The notes under the pieces are model-generated. The model was not told where the DNA came from, searched no databases, and saw nothing but the letters and a program-made list of their open reading frames with translations. 37,500 nt of DNA, from contig NC_010321.1 of the NCBI RefSeq assembly GCF_000019085.1, positions 2,227,501 to 2,265,000 of the forward strand, in the 5' to 3' direction. Position 1 is the stretch's first letter, and every line of letters begins with the position of its first letter. Below, piece by piece: positions 15,663 through 32,250 of this stretch. The translations under genes were made by a program, and so were the position numbers. Source of the stretch: Thermoanaerobacter pseudethanolicus ATCC 33223. GTDB lineage: Bacteria; Bacillota; Thermoanaerobacteria; Thermoanaerobacterales; Thermoanaerobacteraceae.

Positions 15663-15893
15663 TCATATTTGTTTTAACATTTGTGTTATCTCCATCTTAT
15701 CTGCTTTTTCTGCTAAAAGTATTGTAAACAGTAAGAACAGCGCTCCAAATCCTGCAATTATAGAGATATTGTACAGTATTGCGCTAATATTGTTCCCAGA
15801 TATTGCTTCCCTAAGACCTGCAACTCCATAAGTCATAGGCAGATAAGGATTTATTGCGTTGAAAAACTTAGGAAACAACTTTATTGGGAAAGT
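15663..15893 (-). pseudogene. C-terminal remnant of a YhgE/Pip family membrane protein
   Basis: About 76 codons resembling the last part of YhgE/Pip (phage infection protein) transporters: TFPIKLFPKFFNAINPYLP, then MTYGVAGLREAISG, one hydrophobic segment and a charged tail. Family members are normally 700 residues or more, so nine tenths are missing. Similarity continues about five codons upstream of the first possible start (TTG at 15878), right up to an in-frame TAA, and there is no ribosome site. This shows a deleted 5' end rather than a true small gene. The intact terminator downstream is retained. Confidence 0.7.
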
Positions 15894-16737: not shown

Positions 16738-16779
16738 GATAAGGTAACCCCATAGTAAAAAAAAGAGGTATACCTTATC
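16738..16779. promoter_or_regulatory. Inverted repeat upstream of the SDR gene
   Basis: GATAAGGTA (16738-16746) and TACCTTATC (16771-16779) are perfect inverted 9-mers with a 24-nt spacer. The right arm also belongs to the 10-bp palindrome AGGTATACCT. A TTGATA overlaps the right arm on the minus strand, and TACTAT lies 19 nt further on, so this could be the promoter with operator half-sites. No regulator is identifiable. Confidence 0.4.
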
Positions 16780-16832
16780 AAAAATAGTATAACTTAAAAG
16801 TTTTATAAAAATCAAATAGAAAAATTATCTGA

Positions 16833-16945
16833 GGTGCGTCCAACTTTGTAGGTAGCTGACATTTTGCACAAAGCGCGCAACTTGACCGAACAGTCCTAAA
16901 CTTAGCAAGACCAAAAGATGGAGGGGGGGCCGGAGGCTGGCCCCT
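16833..16945. other. GC-rich non-coding block, possible insertion-sequence remnant
   Basis: This stretch between two genes is richer in G and C than its surroundings (for example GCGCGCAACTTGACC) and has no open frame of note. It begins abruptly at GAGGTGCGTCCAACTTTG after AT-rich DNA. It ends in the hairpin GGGGCC-7-GGCCCC (16926-16944) next to the stop of the ATP-grasp gene, which could act as that gene's terminator although it lacks a good U run. I do not recognise the sequence; a relic of an IS end or a dispersed element are both possible. Confidence 0.4.
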
Positions 16946-16949
16946 CAAA

Positions 16950-17927
16950 TTACTTCAATTTATACCTTTCTATAGCACTTTCTATAATCTTCCCAATAAA
17001 TTCTCCTCTTGTTAAACCTGCCGCTTTTGCCATATAACCCATGTATCCGTGGTGAACATGTTTTTCTCCTTTGCTACTTGACATTGTAAGTCCCGCAAAG
17101 GTATTCAATTCTAAGAAATAAGGAACATTATCTTTGCTTAGAATCATATCAATTCTAGCAAAATCCTTGGCATTTAAAACCTTATAAATATTCAAAGCCG
17201 TCTCTTTAATCTTTTCTTCCACTTCTTTTGGTACTTCTATAGGGCATTTTATTATCTCGTTGTCAAACATTTTGTGTTCATAAGTATTAGTTTTAACGTT
17301 ATTATATCCTACTTCCAATAAAGGCAATACTTGTGGGTGTTTATATCCGATTATTCCAACGGTCACTTCTTTTCCTTCGATGAATTCTTCGATTAGCGCT
17401 GCTTGTCCTATTTTTTCTGTTATTTTGCTTACAACTTGTGGAAGTTTATCCTTATCATAAATTATATTTTCTTCATCTATACCTGCACTTCCTCTTCCAC
17501 TTATAGGTTTTACAAATAGAGGAAATTTAAGATGGTCTACAGAAGGAATTTCTTGAGGATTTTCTGCAATTACATATTTAGGCGTAGGCAAACCGTGAGA
17601 AGCCACAATGTCCTTCCTCATTCTCTTATCAGTTGCTACTACGTCCAAACCAGATCCAACATATGGTATGTTGAATACTTCTAAAAATGCTACTTCTTTC
17701 ATACTCGAGGCATTAAAAATTAAATCCACCTTTTCTTTTTTTATAGTTTCATAAGTTTCTAATGGATCTTCCTTCCATTCTATGAGGACTGAATCAAATC
17801 CAGCTTCTTTTATGGCCATATAATGATGGTATGCTTCATCATAGGCATCGTCATATACTTTGTCTGGCGTCAATTTCCTCTGAAATTCGACATTCCTGAA
17901 TTTCCTCCAAAGCACACCAATTTTCAT
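16950..17927 (-). CDS. ATP-grasp ligase of the D-alanine-D-alanine ligase type
   Basis: A 325-residue ATP-grasp protein related to D-Ala-D-Ala ligase. Visible motifs are FVKPISGRGSAGI (ATP and magnesium-binding region), LIEEFIEGKEVTVG and the catalytic end FARIDMILSKDNVPYFLELNTFAG. These enzymes join a carboxylate to an amine through an acyl-phosphate. It is the last gene of the nucleotidyltransferase, GT4, (alpha/alpha)6 operon, which suggests a role in modifying a glycan or solute rather than in peptidoglycan synthesis, where Ddl genes normally sit beside mur genes. AAGGGTGAT precedes the ATG. A true Ddl function cannot be excluded; the substrate is unknown. Confidence 0.82.
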   Translation of the reverse strand: MKIGVLWRKFRNVEFQRKLTPDKVYDDAYDEAYHHYMAIKEAGFDSVLIEWKEDPLETYETIKKEKVDLIFNASSMKEVAFLEVFNIPYVGSGLDVVATDKRMRKDIVASHGLPTPKYVIAENPQEIPSVDHLKFPLFVKPISGRGSAGIDEENIIYDKDKLPQVVSKITEKIGQAALIEEFIEGKEVTVGIIGYKHPQVLPLLEVGYNNVKTNTYEHKMFDNEIIKCPIEVPKEVEEKIKETALNIYKVLNAKDFARIDMILSKDNVPYFLELNTFAGLTMSSSKGEKHVHHGYMGYMAKAAGLTRGEFIGKIIESAIERYKLK

Positions 17928-17980: not shown

Positions 17981-19030
17981 CTACTTAAATACAGTTTCTG
18001 TGTGATTCACCACCATGTCAGTTATAATCAGTGAAATCATGCTTTCTGCTCCTTCATTTAAATTTACTCCCTCTTTAGTTATACCGTCGTAGCAACCTCC
18101 TGTTTCCTCATCTATCAAAGGCACATTTTTTGAGTTTTCTCCTAAAAACCAATTGTAACATTTCAAACTCTTTTCTTTGTATTTTTCTTCTTGAAAAATT
18201 TTATAAGCTTCTGTGTACATAAGAGCAGTTTCACAAGCCTCTACCGGTTGTTCATCAAATTCTGCAGGTTTTTCATCTCCTTTTTTGTACCAATCTTTAC
18301 AACCTATCGGCTTAAAATACCCACTTCTAAAAGTTACTTTTTCTAAAAATTCCATGCTTTCTTTTGCAACATCTAAGACTTCTTCATCTTTTGTAATAAT
18401 GTATGACCTAAGAAGAGCCCAAGGAAGTACGGCATTGCTGTAAGTCATTATATTTTCAAACCATTTCCACTCTCCATCTTTGTTTTCCCTATATTTTTGA
18501 ACTATTTTTTTTGAAATAGAAGTTATTAAATTTTTTATCTTCTCTTTGTTAAATTCAGTAACATCAGAACTGTATAAAAGGCTTAATCCTATTAACGAAT
18601 AAGCGTTACCGCGAAGAGAATTTAAATTTGCTACATTTGGCAAAGCTTTTTTGATTAATGTCACAGCAACACTTTGATAACCATTAGACAAATTAGTATT
18701 TAATAAATATCCTAATGCCCATAAAGTTCTGCCAAAACAATCTTCTGAGCCAACTTCTTCAATAAATTCTCTATTGTAGTTCATAAAATTTCTAAAATAT
18801 CCTTTGCCGTTTTGGGCATAAATCAAGAAAGAAAGGTATCTCTTTAAAAGATCGAGGTATTTTTCATCTTTGTAAACTTCATATAGCATTGAAGCAGCAA
18901 TAAGAGCCCTTGAATTGTCATCAGTAGTGTAACCTTTTGTCAAATCAGGAATAGAGTAAAGGGAATGTTGTAAAATGCCTGTATCGTCTGTTAGGTTGAA
19001 AAGATGCTGAAACTTAGTTGCTAGCTTCAT
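17981..19030 (-). CDS. (Alpha/alpha)6-barrel glycosidase-like protein
   Basis: A 349-residue protein rich in helices, with repeated aromatic and acidic motifs of (alpha/alpha)6 toroid enzymes: YTTDDNSRALIAA near residue 34, NREFIEEVGSEDCFGRTLWA, GEWKWFENIMTYSNAVLPWAL, DEQPVEACETALMY and GGCYDGITKEGVNLNEGAES. No signal peptide is present, so it is cytoplasmic. From memory, such proteins are commonly annotated as glycosyltransferase or glycosidase and lie beside GT4 genes in mannose-related loci. It begins 20 nt after the GT4 stop with AAGGGGGAA upstream. It may trim or branch the glycan made by its neighbour. The catalytic activity is not established. Confidence 0.65.
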   Translation of the reverse strand: MKLATKFQHLFNLTDDTGILQHSLYSIPDLTKGYTTDDNSRALIAASMLYEVYKDEKYLDLLKRYLSFLIYAQNGKGYFRNFMNYNREFIEEVGSEDCFGRTLWALGYLLNTNLSNGYQSVAVTLIKKALPNVANLNSLRGNAYSLIGLSLLYSSDVTEFNKEKIKNLITSISKKIVQKYRENKDGEWKWFENIMTYSNAVLPWALLRSYIITKDEEVLDVAKESMEFLEKVTFRSGYFKPIGCKDWYKKGDEKPAEFDEQPVEACETALMYTEAYKIFQEEKYKEKSLKCYNWFLGENSKNVPLIDEETGGCYDGITKEGVNLNEGAESMISLIITDMVVNHTETVFK

Positions 19031-19050: not shown

Positions 19051-20226
19051 CTATATCACAACTTCCTCCCTTGATTTAATGTCCAATACAGACAAAATCA
19101 TTATGACATATCTGTAAGCAACGTTATTCCACATCATTGTATTCCCTAATTTTTTAATTTCTGCCTCTATCTGCAGCCTTTTCTCAGGGTTTTCAAATAT
19201 ATACTCAATATGTTTAGCTAAAGACTTTGCATCACGGAAATTAGCAAGCAATCCTCTTCCTTCTCCTAAAATTTCTTCAGCGTACATATAAGGAGTGGAA
19301 ATAATCACTTTCCCTAAACCTGCTGCATATGCTAAAGTACCGCTTACAGCTTGTTCTTTGTTTAAGTATGGAGTCATATATATATCTGACATCTTCAAAT
19401 ACTCCAAAATCTCTTTCTTCCTAAGATATTTATCCACAAATTTTACATTGTCTTCTACTCCAAGGTCATGGACTAGTTTTTGAAGTTTCTCCCTATACTC
19501 TTCCCCAAATTCTCTCTTTATGTTTGGATGGGTTTGCCCTAAAATTAGGTATAATACATCTTTGTATTTTTTTGCTACCATACTTATTGCTTCTATACCG
19601 TACTCTATTCCTTTACCAGGATTTATAAGACCAAAAGTGCTTATTATTCTTCTCCCTTTAAAGCCATATCTTTCTTTCAATGTTTCCTTAGGTAATACTG
19701 GAAAATTGGGAACTCCATGAGGAATCACTGTGATTTTACAGGAGGGTATGTGATATATCTTTTCAAGAAGTGGTATAGTATTTTTAGCCATTGTAACTAC
19801 TTTAACGCTTTTTTCCCCTAATTCTCTAAGTATCATAAGTTGTTTTTCATTTGGATTTGATAATACTGTGTGGACTGTCAAAACAAAGGGTATATTTAAA
19901 TTGTCTACCAAATCTAATAAGTATTCTCCACTTTCTCCTCCAAATATTCCGTATTCATGCTCTATAATGAGCAAATCTATGTCAGATTCATTTAATTCAT
20001 GGGCTAATCTTACATAATCTTCTCTTACAAATTGTTGTAACTGATATTTAACATCGCTGTCATATTCATAAGTTTTATTATCATTTATTGCAATTACTCC
20101 TGCAAAATTAATAAGTTTTATCTTTTTTATTTCATTAACTAAATCTTGAGTAAAAGTAGCAATGCCACATTCTCTTGGTGGATAAGTACTCAAAAATGCT
20201 ACATTTCTCCCCAATACGCTCATCAT
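19051..20226 (-). CDS. GT4-family glycosyltransferase
   Basis: A 391-residue GT-B glycosyltransferase. The N-terminus STYPPRECGIATFTQDLV fits acceptor-side loops of GT4 enzymes. PHGVP, then STFGLINPGKGIEYGIEA and GTLAYAAGLGKVIIS mark the nucleotide-sugar-binding half. There is no signal peptide or membrane segment. It would transfer a sugar, probably mannose from GDP-mannose judging by the gene before it, to an unknown acceptor with retention. AAGGGGG lies 6 nt before the first of two tandem ATGs. It is the second gene of the operon controlled by the CIRCE-like site. Confidence 0.87.
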   Translation of the reverse strand: MMSVLGRNVAFLSTYPPRECGIATFTQDLVNEIKKIKLINFAGVIAINDNKTYEYDSDVKYQLQQFVREDYVRLAHELNESDIDLLIIEHEYGIFGGESGEYLLDLVDNLNIPFVLTVHTVLSNPNEKQLMILRELGEKSVKVVTMAKNTIPLLEKIYHIPSCKITVIPHGVPNFPVLPKETLKERYGFKGRRIISTFGLINPGKGIEYGIEAISMVAKKYKDVLYLILGQTHPNIKREFGEEYREKLQKLVHDLGVEDNVKFVDKYLRKKEILEYLKMSDIYMTPYLNKEQAVSGTLAYAAGLGKVIISTPYMYAEEILGEGRGLLANFRDAKSLAKHIEYIFENPEKRLQIEAEIKKLGNTMMWNNVAYRYVIMILSVLDIKSREEVVI

Positions 20227-20255: not shown

Positions 20256-21302
20256 TTAAGTTGTCATTGTAGTACTTGCTAATCTATTAGGTGTAAACAC
20301 TGTATTTTTAATTTCCATATTCACCTCTACTATACATTCTGAAGTTACAACTGCATTGTCTAATCTTGCAAACCTGCGGACTTTTACATTATCCCACAAT
20401 ACACTTTGGGATACTTTGCTCTCTTGACCTATTCGACAGTTATTCCCAATTACTGTATACGGACCAACTGTAGCATAGGCATCAATTTCAGTATTATTTC
20501 CAATATAAGCAGGTCCTATCACTCTTGCGGTAGGATGAATTTTAACATTGTCTCCTAAAATTATGCCTCTTGAGGAAGTAGTACTTACAAATCTTGATTT
20601 TCCTTTTAAAATGTCCTCATGAACTTTTTTGTATTTGTCTATTGTACCTATATCTATCCAGTAGCCGTTAAATTTATAAATAGCCATTCTATACCCTTTT
20701 TCCAAAAGTTTGGGATATGTCTCTCTTTCTACAGATATCACTGTATTTTCAGGAATTTCTTTTAGCACCTCAGGTTCAAATACATATACTCCTGCGTTAA
20801 TATATTTAGAATTGCTCTCGCCTGGTTTGGGCTTTTCTTTGAAAGCAGTTATAAAGCCTTTTTCATCAAATTCTATAACTCCGTACTGAGAAGTATCTCT
20901 TACTTCAATAGATGCAATAGTTACTTGAGCTCTTCTTCTCTTGTGGTATTTTATCAAATCTGCATAGTCAATATCACTGACAATATCAGAGTTTAAAATG
21001 AGGAAAGTATCATCAAAAAATTTTTCGGCGTTTTTTATTGCTCCACCAGTCCCTAAAGGGGACTCTTCTGTAATGAAGTGTATTTTTACACCTAAGTCCT
21101 CTTTTTGTTTGAAGTAGTCTTCAATGTACTGAGACTTATAATAAGTACTTATTACAATTTCATCTACTCCACTTTTTTTAAGGTTTAAAATAATCCTTCC
21201 TAAAAGAGGTCTTCCCATGATAGGAACCATTGGTTTTGGCAGGTCATCTGTAAGAGGTCTTAGCCTTGTTCCCAAACCTCCTGCCAATAGCAATGCCTTC
21301 AT
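20256..21302 (-). CDS. Sugar-1-phosphate nucleotidyltransferase (GDP-mannose pyrophosphorylase-like)
   Basis: A 348-residue enzyme joining a sugar 1-phosphate to a nucleotide. The signature LAGGLGTRLRPLT starts at residue 5, followed by KPMVPIMGRPLL, the metal site NSDIVSDID and EKPKPGES. The C-terminal part has hexapeptide repeats of a left-handed beta helix (VIGPAYIGNNTEIDAYATVG). ATG 21302 follows AAAGGAGGGG; the frame extends ten codons further but without such support. It is the first gene of its operon, about 140 nt downstream of a consensus promoter with a CIRCE-like operator. Mannose 1-phosphate from the GH130 enzymes of the neighbouring operon is a plausible substrate. Glucose 1-phosphate with UTP or dTTP is the alternative. 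Confidence 0.88.
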   Translation of the reverse strand: MKALLLAGGLGTRLRPLTDDLPKPMVPIMGRPLLGRIILNLKKSGVDEIVISTYYKSQYIEDYFKQKEDLGVKIHFITEESPLGTGGAIKNAEKFFDDTFLILNSDIVSDIDYADLIKYHKRRRAQVTIASIEVRDTSQYGVIEFDEKGFITAFKEKPKPGESNSKYINAGVYVFEPEVLKEIPENTVISVERETYPKLLEKGYRMAIYKFNGYWIDIGTIDKYKKVHEDILKGKSRFVSTTSSRGIILGDNVKIHPTARVIGPAYIGNNTEIDAYATVGPYTVIGNNCRIGQESKVSQSVLWDNVKVRRFARLDNAVVTSECIVEVNMEIKNTVFTPNRLASTTMTT

Positions 21303-21417: not shown

Positions 21418-21444
21418 TTAGCACTCTTGAAATTCGGCTGCTAA
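21418..21444. promoter_or_regulatory. CIRCE-like operator (HrcA site)
   Basis: On the minus strand TTAGCAGCC, 9 nt, GAGTGCTAA. The heat-shock operator CIRCE is TTAGCACTC-N9-GAGTGCTAA, so the right half is perfect, the spacer length is exact and the left half has two mismatches. It covers the expected start point of the promoter at 21450-21478, the normal place for HrcA repression. Confidence 0.75.
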
Positions 21445-21449
21445 TAAGT

Positions 21450-21478
21450 ATTATAATTAATCCTTTTTGGTATGTCAA
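21450..21478 (-). promoter_or_regulatory. Consensus sigma-A promoter of the glycan operon
   Basis: TTGACA (21478-21473) and TATAAT (21455-21450) on the minus strand are separated by exactly 17 nt, a perfect consensus. It drives the nucleotidyltransferase, GT4, (alpha/alpha)6 and ATP-grasp genes. Confidence 0.88.
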
Positions 21479-21500
21479 GTACTTTTCTGTAAATAAAAAA

Positions 21501-21519
21501 CAGGCCTTTTAAAAGCCTG
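21501..21519 (-). terminator. Intrinsic terminator of the mannoside operon
   Basis: On the minus strand CAGGC and GCCTG form a stem closed by an AT-rich loop and followed by TTTTTTATTT. It abuts the stop codon of the last GH130 gene and separates that operon from the next promoter. Confidence 0.82.
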
Positions 21520-22410
21520 CTAAAATTTGATATCCTTCATTTCTAATATCGCCACGCCTATAACAGTATCCGCACCCCCATAATAAACGTAAATAGTATC
21601 ATCTTTTACTGCATTACCACAACTAAATACAACATTAGGGATGTATCCTTCTTTTTCCCAACCCAGTTCTGGCTCTAAGATAGGTTCTTTTTGCCTTGCA
21701 ATAACCTTTGATGGATCTTCTAAATCTAAAAGGACTGCTCCCAATCTATACACATTATTGTCATCAGCTGCATGGTATATCAAAAACCAACCGTCCTTTG
21801 TCTTAATAGGAGGCCCTCCAATTCCTACTCTCGCACTCTCCCATGTATTTGGAATAGGTTTTAGTATTGGTTTATGGTCGTACCAATTTTTTAAATCATC
21901 AGAAAATGCTATCCAAATGTCGGGATATCTCCTGTGCAACATCACATATTTACCATTAATTTTTTCAGGAAATAAAGAGGCGTCTTTATTAGGTTCATCT
22001 AAAACTACTCCTTTTCTCTCCCAATCTATAAGGTTTTTGGAGGTAGCCAAACAGATCCTATAGTCATCTTGAAATCTGTCTCCAAAACCTGTGTACATCA
22101 TATAATAAATGCCGTCAATTTTGACTATCCTTGGGTCTTCTAATCCTCTGAGCTCTTGTTCTGTCTCATTGCTCATCACTGGTTTGTCTAATCTCATAAA
22201 ATTAATTCCGTCTTTGCTAACTGCATATCCCAAGCGAGAAATATATTTCCCATATTTGGCGTGAGGTCCAATGTCAGTAGCTCTGTAAATCAAGTGAAAC
22301 AGTCCATTGTCATAAATTGCTGCAGTGTTAAAAACTGCTGCTCTTTCCCATTCATTTTCTGCTTTTGGCATCAATACCGGCTTATCTGATAATCTCTTTA
22401 ATTTTATCAC
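21520..22410 (-). CDS. GH130 beta-mannoside phosphorylase, copy A
   Basis: A 296-residue five-bladed propeller enzyme of family GH130. Motifs shared with its neighbour: NEWERAAVFNTAAIY, LIYRATD, GLEDPRIVKIDG, MYTGFGDR, LFPEKINGKYVMLHRR, PDIWIAFSDDL, GGPPIKTKDGWFLIYH and QKEPILEPELGWE. Such enzymes split beta-mannosides with phosphate to give alpha-mannose 1-phosphate in the cytoplasm. A GTG at 22410 is chosen: AAAAGGAG lies 8 nt upstream and the resulting MIKLKRLSDKPVL aligns residue for residue with MFRLTRLSNKPIL of copy B. From memory, an adjacent GH130 pair in Thermoanaerobacter sp. X-514 (Teth514_1788 and 1789) was shown to be a beta-1,2-oligomannan and a beta-1,2-mannobiose phosphorylase; this pair is probably the same. 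Which copy is which I cannot tell. Confidence 0.88.
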   Translation of the reverse strand: MIKLKRLSDKPVLMPKAENEWERAAVFNTAAIYDNGLFHLIYRATDIGPHAKYGKYISRLGYAVSKDGINFMRLDKPVMSNETEQELRGLEDPRIVKIDGIYYMMYTGFGDRFQDDYRICLATSKNLIDWERKGVVLDEPNKDASLFPEKINGKYVMLHRRYPDIWIAFSDDLKNWYDHKPILKPIPNTWESARVGIGGPPIKTKDGWFLIYHAADDNNVYRLGAVLLDLEDPSKVIARQKEPILEPELGWEKEGYIPNVVFSCGNAVKDDTIYVYYGGADTVIGVAILEMKDIKF

Positions 22411-22424
22411 TCCATACACTCCTT

Positions 22425-23333
22425 TTAAAATTTTACTTTTTCTTTTTCAATGACTGCTACACCTATATGGGTATCTGCTGCTCCATAATACACATAATAC
22501 ATGTCATTCACTTCAACTGCACCGCAGCTAAACACCACATTAGGTACCAGCCCATTTATTTCCCAATCAAGCTCTGGCTCTAAAATAGGCTCTTTTTGTC
22601 TCGCAATAACCTTTGATGGGTCCTTTAAGTCTAAAAGAGCTACACCAAGTCTGTACACATTGTTGTTATCCACCCCGTGATATATTAAAAGCCATCCATC
22701 TTCTCTTTTTATAGGAGGTCCTGCTATGCCAATTTTCTTTGACTCCCATGTGTGAGATTTAGGGGACATTATAATCTTATGGTTATACCAATTTACTAAA
22801 TCATCAGAATAAGCAATCCAAATATCGGGCATTCTTCTATGGAAAAGCACATACTTACCATTTATTTTTTCGGATAAAAGCGCCGCATCTTTATTGGGTT
22901 CATCAAGAACAATTCTGTGTCCTTTCCAATTTTTTAAATCATCAGACCAAACCATACATATTCTAAAATCCAACCAGTCCCTTCCTCCAAAACCTGTATA
23001 GAGCATGTAATACTTATTGTCTATTTTTGTAATCCTTGGGTCCTCTACTCCCCAAGCTTCTTGCGGAATCTCACCTACTAAAACAGGTTTGTCAAATCTT
23101 TCAAAATTTATACCATCTTCACTTACAGCATATCCAATAGAGGATACAAATTTATATTTTTCTTCTGGCTTTTCAGTATTCAAAACGAATTTATTATTAG
23201 AAGCTCTGTAAAACAAGTGAAATTTATTACCTTCATAAATTACTGCTGCATTAAAAACAGCCTCCTTTTCCCATTCATGCTCTTTTATTGGCGACAATAT
23301 AGGTTTGTTACTAAGTCTTGTTAGCCTGAACAT
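22425..23333 (-). CDS. GH130 beta-mannoside phosphorylase, copy B
   Basis: A 302-residue GH130 enzyme, closely related along its full length to copy A. It has HEWEKEAVFNAAVIYEG, FHLFYRASN, GVEDPRITKIDN, LYTGFGGRDW, LLSEKINGKYVLFHRR, PDIWIAYSDDLVNW and GPPIKREDGWLLIYHG. One difference is a longer loop after FYRASN (about residues 48-62). Such loops can set chain-length preference in the family, which fits one enzyme for disaccharide and one for longer chains. AAAAGGGG, inside the end of the GH5-like gene, precedes the ATG, so the genes are translationally coupled. The products would be mannose 1-phosphate and a shortened mannoside. Linkage specificity (beta-1,2) is inferred from the X-514 pair as recalled. 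Confidence 0.88.
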   Translation of the reverse strand: MFRLTRLSNKPILSPIKEHEWEKEAVFNAAVIYEGNKFHLFYRASNNKFVLNTEKPEEKYKFVSSIGYAVSEDGINFERFDKPVLVGEIPQEAWGVEDPRITKIDNKYYMLYTGFGGRDWLDFRICMVWSDDLKNWKGHRIVLDEPNKDAALLSEKINGKYVLFHRRMPDIWIAYSDDLVNWYNHKIIMSPKSHTWESKKIGIAGPPIKREDGWLLIYHGVDNNNVYRLGVALLDLKDPSKVIARQKEPILEPELDWEINGLVPNVVFSCGAVEVNDMYYVYYGAADTHIGVAVIEKEKVKF

Positions 23334-31168: not shown

Positions 31169-32215
31169 TTAATAAATCTCTTTAACGGACTCTCTTTCTA
31201 TTAGCTTAACCTCCATCCGTATATGGTCACAGGGCTCTTTTGGATTTTCCATCCTCCACAAAAGTCTTTTTACAGCTTTTTCTCCCATAAGTTCTTTATT
31301 TATGCGGATAGTAGTCAAATGCGGTGTCACAATGTTACATATATCAATATCATCAAAGCCAACTACAGAGATATCGTCAGGTACTTTAATACCCAAAATG
31401 CTCAATGCATTGTACAAGGTAATAGCAGCACTATCGTTGGAGCATACCCATGCAGTAGGAAGTTTATCTAACTTTGAGATAATATTTGCTACCTCTTTGT
31501 AGTTTTTGCTTAAAACATATTGTTCTACCTGTCCTATTACACAATATCCAGGATTTACATTAAATATGGGATCTACATTAAGTCCTGCATTTCTCATCGC
31601 CTCGTTAAAGCCTAACCATCTTTCTTTAAAACTTAAAGAAAAATCTATTTCACCAAAAAAACCTATTTGAGTATGTCCTTTTCGAATAAGATATTGTGTT
31701 GCCATATATGTTCCAGGCATATTTTGAGTTAATACAGCATCTGTACTTATAGTAAATGAAGCATGGTCTACAAGGACAGTTGGTATATCATACTTCAATA
31801 ATTTTTCCAGATGTTCATCTTTAATAGTACCAACCACTAAAATTCCTGAAACTTTTCTCGTTTCAACACTGGAAGGTACCTGAAAATCATCTTGATTCAT
31901 GAAGTTTACTAAAATATCGTAATTATTTTTCTTTGCTTCATTCTCTATACCTAAAATTACTTTTGTATAAAAATGAGTATCGCGGAAATTTCTCTCTTCA
32001 ATCAATAGACAAATATTCCTGAAGTGATTTTTAGCAATAAAAGAGGGATTTTCATCAAAATACCCCATTTCATCAGCTGTTTTTAAAACTATTTTCCTTG
32101 TCTCTTCGCTCACCCCCACCTTGTCATTTAAAGCCAGGGACACAGCATTAATTGATAAGTTCAACCTTTCAGCGATATCTTTCATGGTCACTTTTTTCCT
32201 TTTAATTGCCGTCAA
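31169..32215 (-). CDS. LacI-family transcriptional regulator of the mannoside operon
   Basis: About 348 residues. The N-terminal helix-turn-helix is VTMKDIAERLNLSINAVSLALN, with the hinge region VGVSEETRKIVLKTADEMGY. The periplasmic-binding-like effector domain follows, with ISVVGFDDIDICNIVTPHLTTIRI near the end. A TTG at 32215 is chosen because AGAGGTG lies 5 nt upstream; an in-frame GTG at 32224 overlaps that site. It is the first gene of the importer operon and probably represses it, releasing on binding a mannoside or sugar phosphate. Multiple TTACTTGAATT motifs around its promoter are candidate operators. Confidence 0.9.
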   Translation of the reverse strand: MTAIKRKKVTMKDIAERLNLSINAVSLALNDKVGVSEETRKIVLKTADEMGYFDENPSFIAKNHFRNICLLIEERNFRDTHFYTKVILGIENEAKKNNYDILVNFMNQDDFQVPSSVETRKVSGILVVGTIKDEHLEKLLKYDIPTVLVDHASFTISTDAVLTQNMPGTYMATQYLIRKGHTQIGFFGEIDFSLSFKERWLGFNEAMRNAGLNVDPIFNVNPGYCVIGQVEQYVLSKNYKEVANIISKLDKLPTAWVCSNDSAAITLYNALSILGIKVPDDISVVGFDDIDICNIVTPHLTTIRINKELMGEKAVKRLLWRMENPKEPCDHIRMEVKLIERESVKEIY

Positions 32216-32250
32216 ACTTAACACCTCTAAAAATCGTTTTCTTGTAATAG

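Follow-up and report, generated by a model that had tools for sequence, protein, structure and literature searches.

A predicted HrcA operator at the start of a putative mannose-glycan operon in Thermoanaerobacter and related Clostridia

Introduction

Does the heat-shock repressor HrcA control a carbohydrate pathway in Thermoanaerobacter pseudethanolicus ATCC 33223? HrcA is the textbook case of a narrow repressor, known chiefly from groE and dnaK. A sequence-only reading of the window (the whole stretch of 37,500 nucleotides analysed here) had nevertheless proposed a CIRCE-like HrcA operator over the start of a sugar-nucleotide/glycosyltransferase operon. According to our analysis, the best explanation is a genuine HrcA operator on a unit of NTP transferase, GT4 glycosyltransferase and six-hairpin protein (SIXH), extended here by an ATP-grasp gene, with a mannose glycan as the predicted product; we give this reading a probability of about 85%. 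Mannose-glycan synthesis thus appears to be a conserved, overlooked part of the heat-shock response in Thermoanaerobacter and many related Clostridia. Searches of the open-access literature turned up no link between HrcA or CIRCE and a glycan operon, an earlier prediction in databases (e.g. RegPrecise) being possible.

Results

The features of the locus are collected in Table 1. In a scan of the surrounding 10-kb region, the promoter TTGACA-N17-TATAAT was the top of 48 promoter-like matches. The operator differs from the CIRCE consensus TTAGCACTC-N9-GAGTGCTAA by two mismatches with the 9-bp spacing exact, and on the minus strand (reading 21444-21418) both departing bases lie in the promoter-proximal arm. 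It begins 5 bp past the -10 box and therefore covers the start point. Shuffled versions of the window gave a chance expectation of 0.01 such sites at three or fewer mismatches, which, together with the promoter's full match to consensus, confirms the proposed overlap of a CIRCE-like repeat with this start point. Only three CIRCE-like sites at up to three mismatches occur in the 2,362,816-bp genome, namely the operon site and two perfect ones at the starts of groES and hrcA, and the reversed pattern had no match in it. The HrcA protein of this genome scored 319 bits against an NCBIfam cut-off of 197. One HrcA above the cut-off was found in 19 of the 20 family genomes, the remaining genome being incomplete, and no second HrcA exceeded the cut-off in these genomes. 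We predict that the regulator acting on the site is, very probably, HrcA.

Table 1. Features of the locus, with positions counted from the first letter of the window.
Feature	Position	Strand	Remarks
Sugar-1-phosphate nucleotidyltransferase, hexapeptide C-terminus	20256..21302	-	First gene of unit; ORF listed from 21332; ATG and Shine-Dalgarno at 21302
GT4 glycosyltransferase	19051..20226	-	Second gene of unit
Six-hairpin protein (SIXH), (alpha/alpha)6 barrel	17981..19030	-	Pairs with GT4
D-Ala-D-Ala ligase-like ATP-grasp protein	16950..17927	-	Last gene of unit
Sigma-A-type promoter TTGACA-N17-TATAAT	21450..21478	-	12/12 consensus; -35 at 21478-21473, -10 at 21455-21450
Predicted HrcA operator, CIRCE-like, TTAGCAGCC-GAATTTCAA-GAGTGCTAA	21418..21444	-	27 bp; over predicted transcription start
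Terminator-like hairpin with T run	21499..21521	-	Between upstream GH130 unit and CIRCE promoter
G+C-rich hairpin GGGGCC..GGCCCC, possible terminator	16922..16945	-	No T run; 3' of ATP-grasp gene
GH130 beta-1,2-mannoside phosphorylase	21520..22419	-	Upstream unit, own control; over NCBIfam NF052550 cut-off
Second GH130 beta-1,2-mannoside phosphorylase	22425..23333	-	Over curated cut-off
LacI-type regulator gene	31169-32224		Neighbouring cluster

It is plausible that the NTP transferase, GT4, SIXH and ATP-grasp genes form a four-gene unit, because hairpins lie just before the promoter and after the ATP-grasp gene; the latter hairpin, having no T run, was missing from the terminator-scan list. 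The nucleotidyltransferase, an ortholog of Teth514_1787 (PMC4264767), found its best NCBIfam model in NF052502 (mannose-1-P guanylyltransferase), at 274 bits under a cut-off of 440, and from its context and that paper we infer mannose-1-phosphate guanylyltransferase activity. The same source names the GT4 counterpart, Teth514_1786, a GDP-mannose-dependent mannosyltransferase. The structure model of SIXH is an (alpha/alpha)6 barrel (pLDDT 90, pTM 0.91), most similar to an uncharacterised Yersinia protein (7tem, Z 38). Matches to AGE-type sugar epimerases (Z about 30) and to GH76 mannanases (Z 25-28) reflect a shared fold class. Upstream, the two GH130 proteins reached 547 and 546.8 bits against the NCBIfam cut-off of 450 for beta-1,2-mannobiose phosphorylase; among their homologs are Teth514_1788/1789, which have been characterised (PMC4264767).

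Three further observations concern these genes and their surroundings. SIXH also matched within open frames of about 770-820 aa (loci L216-L234, e.g. L217, L219, L222 and L227), a length that would accommodate both domains, and there it is apparently fused to GT4 as one protein. On the minus strand at 15700-15890 of the window lies a short coding remnant with a membrane-protein-like end (..NPYLPMTYGVAGLREAISG..); no full gene was found around it, and it is probably a gene fragment. An imperfect inverted repeat, GATAAGGTATACC..GGGGTTACCTTATC, stands directly before an SDR gene at 16740-16790 (minus strand) and is a possible operator of some other regulator.

The family comparison covered 20 genomes, which are as follows: ten of Thermoanaerobacter, nine of a second genus and one of a third. 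The site precedes the same operon in all ten Thermoanaerobacter genomes and in eight of the nine from the second genus (g3), the contig of the ninth being broken. The inverted repeat is accordingly kept in every complete genome of the two genera, so that the check on close relatives proposed with the sequence-only reading came out in its favour, and the spacer alone varies. Its family form is TTAGCAGCC-N9-GAGTGCTAA, with one genome (G004) one base further off. Between the two genera the arms are 99-100% identical, against 31% for the spacer and 31% for the downstream flank; as read from this alignment, invariant arms around a free spacer are what marks out a site bound by protein. The sole genome of the third genus (g2, G001) retains only a remnant with five mismatches, and in two genomes of another family (f2) these genes are preceded by sites that depart from CIRCE by a single mismatch. 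In Thermoanaerobacter wiegelii Rt8.B1 (genome G002, L089:6001-8075), the SIXH and ATP-grasp genes are each split by frame changes, and the operon may be decaying there with its operator intact.

For the wider survey, loci were taken from named genomes, a phylum sample and the order holding Pseudobacteroides; SIXH was present in 91 of the 398 phylum-sample genomes. For each of 198 de-duplicated loci, the score was that of the best CIRCE match in the 450 bp ahead of any gene of the block. CIRCE was found at zero to three mismatches in 51 loci and at four in none, and the remainder formed a background at five to nine, while shuffled palindromes produced on average about 0.07 loci at three or fewer. 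The site stood before 46 of 71 blocks with an NTP transferase versus 5 of 127 without one. Some of the CIRCE-negative loci are incomplete or have the site farther out, ahead of a first gene that was not recognised (e.g. L094, L100, L164, L274). The association extends over Thermoanaerobacterales, Acetivibrionales and Negativicutes and includes eleven perfect sites, and a near-consensus -35/-10 pair precedes 48 of the 51, mostly with a gap of 4-8 bp. The search of related genomes proposed with the sequence-only reading thus recovered the site in other orders too, where the CIRCE ahead of the orthologous operon is often perfect. On a GT4+SIXH tree (FastTree, with long branches, to be taken as a guide only), the sites fall almost all within one large operon clade with scattered exceptions, which suggests that the link between CIRCE and the operon is old and has been kept with some losses. 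The GT4-SIXH pair occurs without CIRCE in Caldicellulosiruptor, Paenibacillus and archaea, and the glycan would therefore not be tied to heat shock everywhere. The earlier phrase "in a thermophile" proved too narrow, since the mesophiles Pseudobacteroides and Propionispira are also among the operon carriers listed.

Some loci join the operon to groESL. In Pseudobacteroides cellulosolvens (L085:2377-10371) a perfect CIRCE is followed by GH130-NTP-GT4-SIXH-phosphomannomutase-groES-groEL, and in Thermoclostridium caenicola (L090:2428-8982) by GH130-NTP-GT4-SIXH-groES-groEL. In both, the CIRCE lies behind a sigma-A promoter and all genes run in the same direction; no separate CIRCE was found near the operon-linked second groESL, and in each genome a further groEL, at a different locus, has a perfect CIRCE to itself. 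A metagenome-assembled genome (L127) shows NTP-GT4-SIXH followed by groES-groEL, without CIRCE. Another perfect CIRCE precedes GH130, NTP, GT4, SIXH and manA in locus L275 (genome G449), which we take to be Clostridium (Acetivibrio) thermocellum ATCC 27405, the gene order also fitting Cthe_3112-3116; the GH130 of this locus falls short of the cut-off set for beta-1,2-mannobiose phosphorylase.

A peculiarity of the operator is its promoter-proximal arm, whose two departing bases, at positions 7-8, do not vary within Thermoanaerobacteraceae (the AGCC variant). Across the 51 sites, these positions carry 26 and 22 mismatches, compared with 0 and 1 at their distal mirror positions; outside the family the figures are 8 and 4 against, again, 0 and 1. 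Within the family genomes themselves, by contrast, almost every groES and hrcA site is perfect. As a lead, from related sequences that are not independent, this suggests that the weakened arm makes the operon a regulon member of lower affinity that is released earlier.

Published expression data point in the same direction. The ten genes most strongly induced by heat at 30-120 min include, according to Table 2 of PMC3848806 (whose negative values denote higher expression under treatment), the mannose-6-phosphate isomerase gene Cthe_3116 and Cthe_3112, annotated "glycosidase related protein"; the dnaK operon genes of C. thermocellum are heat-induced as well. That study took the induction of the Cthe genes as central carbon metabolism and, in its accessible sections, names no HrcA site. 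In Thermoanaerobacter X514, Teth514_1784-1789 and hrcA-grpE-dnaK-dnaJ (2078-2081) are among 72 up-regulated genes (PMC3751872), the contrast being 6% ethanol in an ethanol-adapted mutant and not plain heat shock; the accessible text does not ascribe the induction of Teth514_1784-1789 to HrcA. These heat and ethanol data are correlative and fit HrcA control. Deletion of hrcA in T. kivui left growth at 72 C unchanged (PMC12044746), and a paper on transcription-factor binding in C. thermocellum (PMC8457756) contains no HrcA data. Taken together, conservation, perfect CIRCE at orthologs and the published induction of orthologs leave the HrcA reading of the site well supported.

Discussion

In unstressed cells, we posit, HrcA bound to the operator would cover the transcription start and keep the unit low. 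Heat or ethanol ties up GroEL, and HrcA then loses activity, which is the established CIRCE mechanism. With GroEL thus occupied and repression by HrcA lost, transcription of the unit would rise alongside that of groESL and hrcA-grpE-dnaK-dnaJ. The two-base departure in the promoter-proximal arm may lower the affinity of the Thermoanaerobacteraceae sites for the repressor. The unit's enzymes would convert mannose-1-phosphate to GDP-mannose, from which the GT4/SIXH pair would build a mannose glycan, the likeliest form being a beta-linked oligo- or polymannose inside the cell; GH130 phosphorylases would return it to mannose-1-phosphate, and the glycan could serve as a heat-induced reserve or protectant.

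We hold with moderate confidence that the product contains mannose, because genes for GDP-mannose and GH130 phosphorylases travel with the operon. In one species or another, GT4 comes with manA, phosphomannomutase or a GDP-mannose-type nucleotidyltransferase, and GH130 genes often lie next to the operon, archaeal and WOR-1 loci included. The original "glycan or glycosylated solute" can on the strength of the manA, phosphomannomutase, mannose-1-P guanylyltransferase-like and GH130 genes be narrowed to a mannose glycan. Turnover is probably by GH130 beta-mannoside phosphorylases. Mannose-glycan synthesis with phosphorolytic recovery is the most economical reading, the linkage, size, location and role given above being what the gene content suggests; our confidence in a heat-protective function is weak, and the envelope change that the sequence-only reading also suggested is no more than a possibility. 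The ATP-grasp ligase that the sequence-only reading had included is indeed the last gene of the unit here, but it is a local addition, adjoining the operon in Thermoanaerobacter alone among the loci examined.

Among the alternatives, the one that survives best, in our view an improbable one, is that the unit is a route by which beta-1,2-mannosides taken up from outside are salvaged into GDP-mannose (Chiku et al. 2014), as one cluster with GH130 and ABC genes and with no special link to heat. Phosphorolysis of beta-1,2-mannosides is indeed what the cluster's GH130 enzymes carry out, and synteny of the cluster holds within Thermoanaerobacter (PMC4264767); the cluster is divided, however, by the terminator-like hairpin and the separate perfect promoter of the CIRCE site. 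Elsewhere NTP-GT4-SIXH occurs without the ABC/GH42-like set and with manA or phosphomannomutase, which amounts to de novo supply of mannose-1-P, and salvage leaves GT4 and SIXH unexplained.

Distinctly less likely is a different repressor with a CIRCE-like operator, by which the unit would respond to a sugar or envelope signal instead of heat. The consistent AGCC of the proximal arm in Thermoanaerobacteraceae could be the half-site of a second protein, and the neighbouring cluster encodes a LacI-type regulator. LacI operators differ in form, however, no HrcA paralog exceeded the cut-off in the family genomes, many orthologous operons carry a perfect CIRCE, and co-induction with class I heat-shock genes has been published (PMC3848806 and PMC3751872). 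Slightly behind it in likelihood comes the reading that the repeat works as RNA, a stability element in the form of a stem-loop with which the mRNA begins, and is no HrcA operator. A CIRCE at the transcript start can fold (-18.3 kcal/mol in C. thermocellum, -8.3 for the window site), and some mismatches are symmetric (TCAGCACTC..GAGTGCTGA) with pairing kept, but such changes suit a DNA dyad equally well. Selection for pairing would permit changes in AGCC or repair it, whereas this left arm is unchanged in two genera despite broken inner stem pairs, as is the distal arm.

That the unit glycosylates ethanol and so lowers the ethanol concentration within the cell (Lin et al. 2013) is very unlikely: the tolerant mutant does induce the unit at 6% ethanol (PMC3751872), yet annotation is the sole basis of the proposal, many carriers of operon and CIRCE have no such need, and ethanol classically induces the HrcA regulon, which accounts for the induction. 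A chance match or functionless fossil, to which the two mismatches from consensus might point, has a negligible probability, chance being ruled out by the shuffles (0.01 per window) and the reversed-arm and shuffled-palindrome controls, and the arms being invariant across genera around a randomised spacer, with a bimodal mismatch distribution over the 198 loci.

Comparison with known systems

As an analogy and not as evidence, Leishmania mannogen is a soluble intracellular beta-1,2-mannan reserve made from GDP-mannose (PMC3290622). It has no known GT4/SIXH pair and no HrcA, and the clostridial polymer is putative. The same genes make up the X514 cluster of Chiku et al. 2014 (PMC4264767), in which Teth514_1785-1787 correspond to SIXH, GT4 and NTP transferase and 1788/1789 to the GH130s. 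It was drawn as a single salvage cluster, with no regulator or heat link in the accessible part of the paper; the hairpin and the CIRCE promoter imply that a cluster of this type comprises two transcription units. In C. thermocellum, the orthologous GH130-NTP-GT4-SIXH genes and manA (Cthe_3112-3116) have their first and last members among the top ten heat-induced genes (PMC3848806, Table 2). The unit there includes GH130 and manA, whereas in Thermoanaerobacter the GH130 genes lie in a separate upstream unit and the ATP-grasp gene is added. The predicted HrcA link would explain the heat and ethanol induction that was published in 2013 under other readings, and would point to an unrecognised stress glycan in industrial thermophiles.

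The class I regulon of Firmicutes (HrcA/CIRCE on groE and dnaK) shares with the present system the operator TTAGCACTC-N9-GAGTGCTAA over a sigma-A start and one HrcA per genome. Further likenesses are the published co-induction with dnaK and the second groESL at the operon's end in two species. It is tempting, if somewhat less than an even bet, to regard a mannogen-like glycan as a third conserved class I heat-shock arm in Clostridia and Negativicutes, called up by the HrcA signal that also governs GroE and DnaK and in some species sharing its transcript with a dedicated second GroESL, the glycan or its enzymes working with GroEL in survival of heat or solvent. The targets of the known regulon are chaperones and that of the present site is a carbohydrate-synthesis unit, with a two-base arm departure fixed in Thermoanaerobacteraceae; the HrcA regulon would thereby gain a carbohydrate pathway across a wide range of Clostridia, which in the home genome is the sole other CIRCE target.
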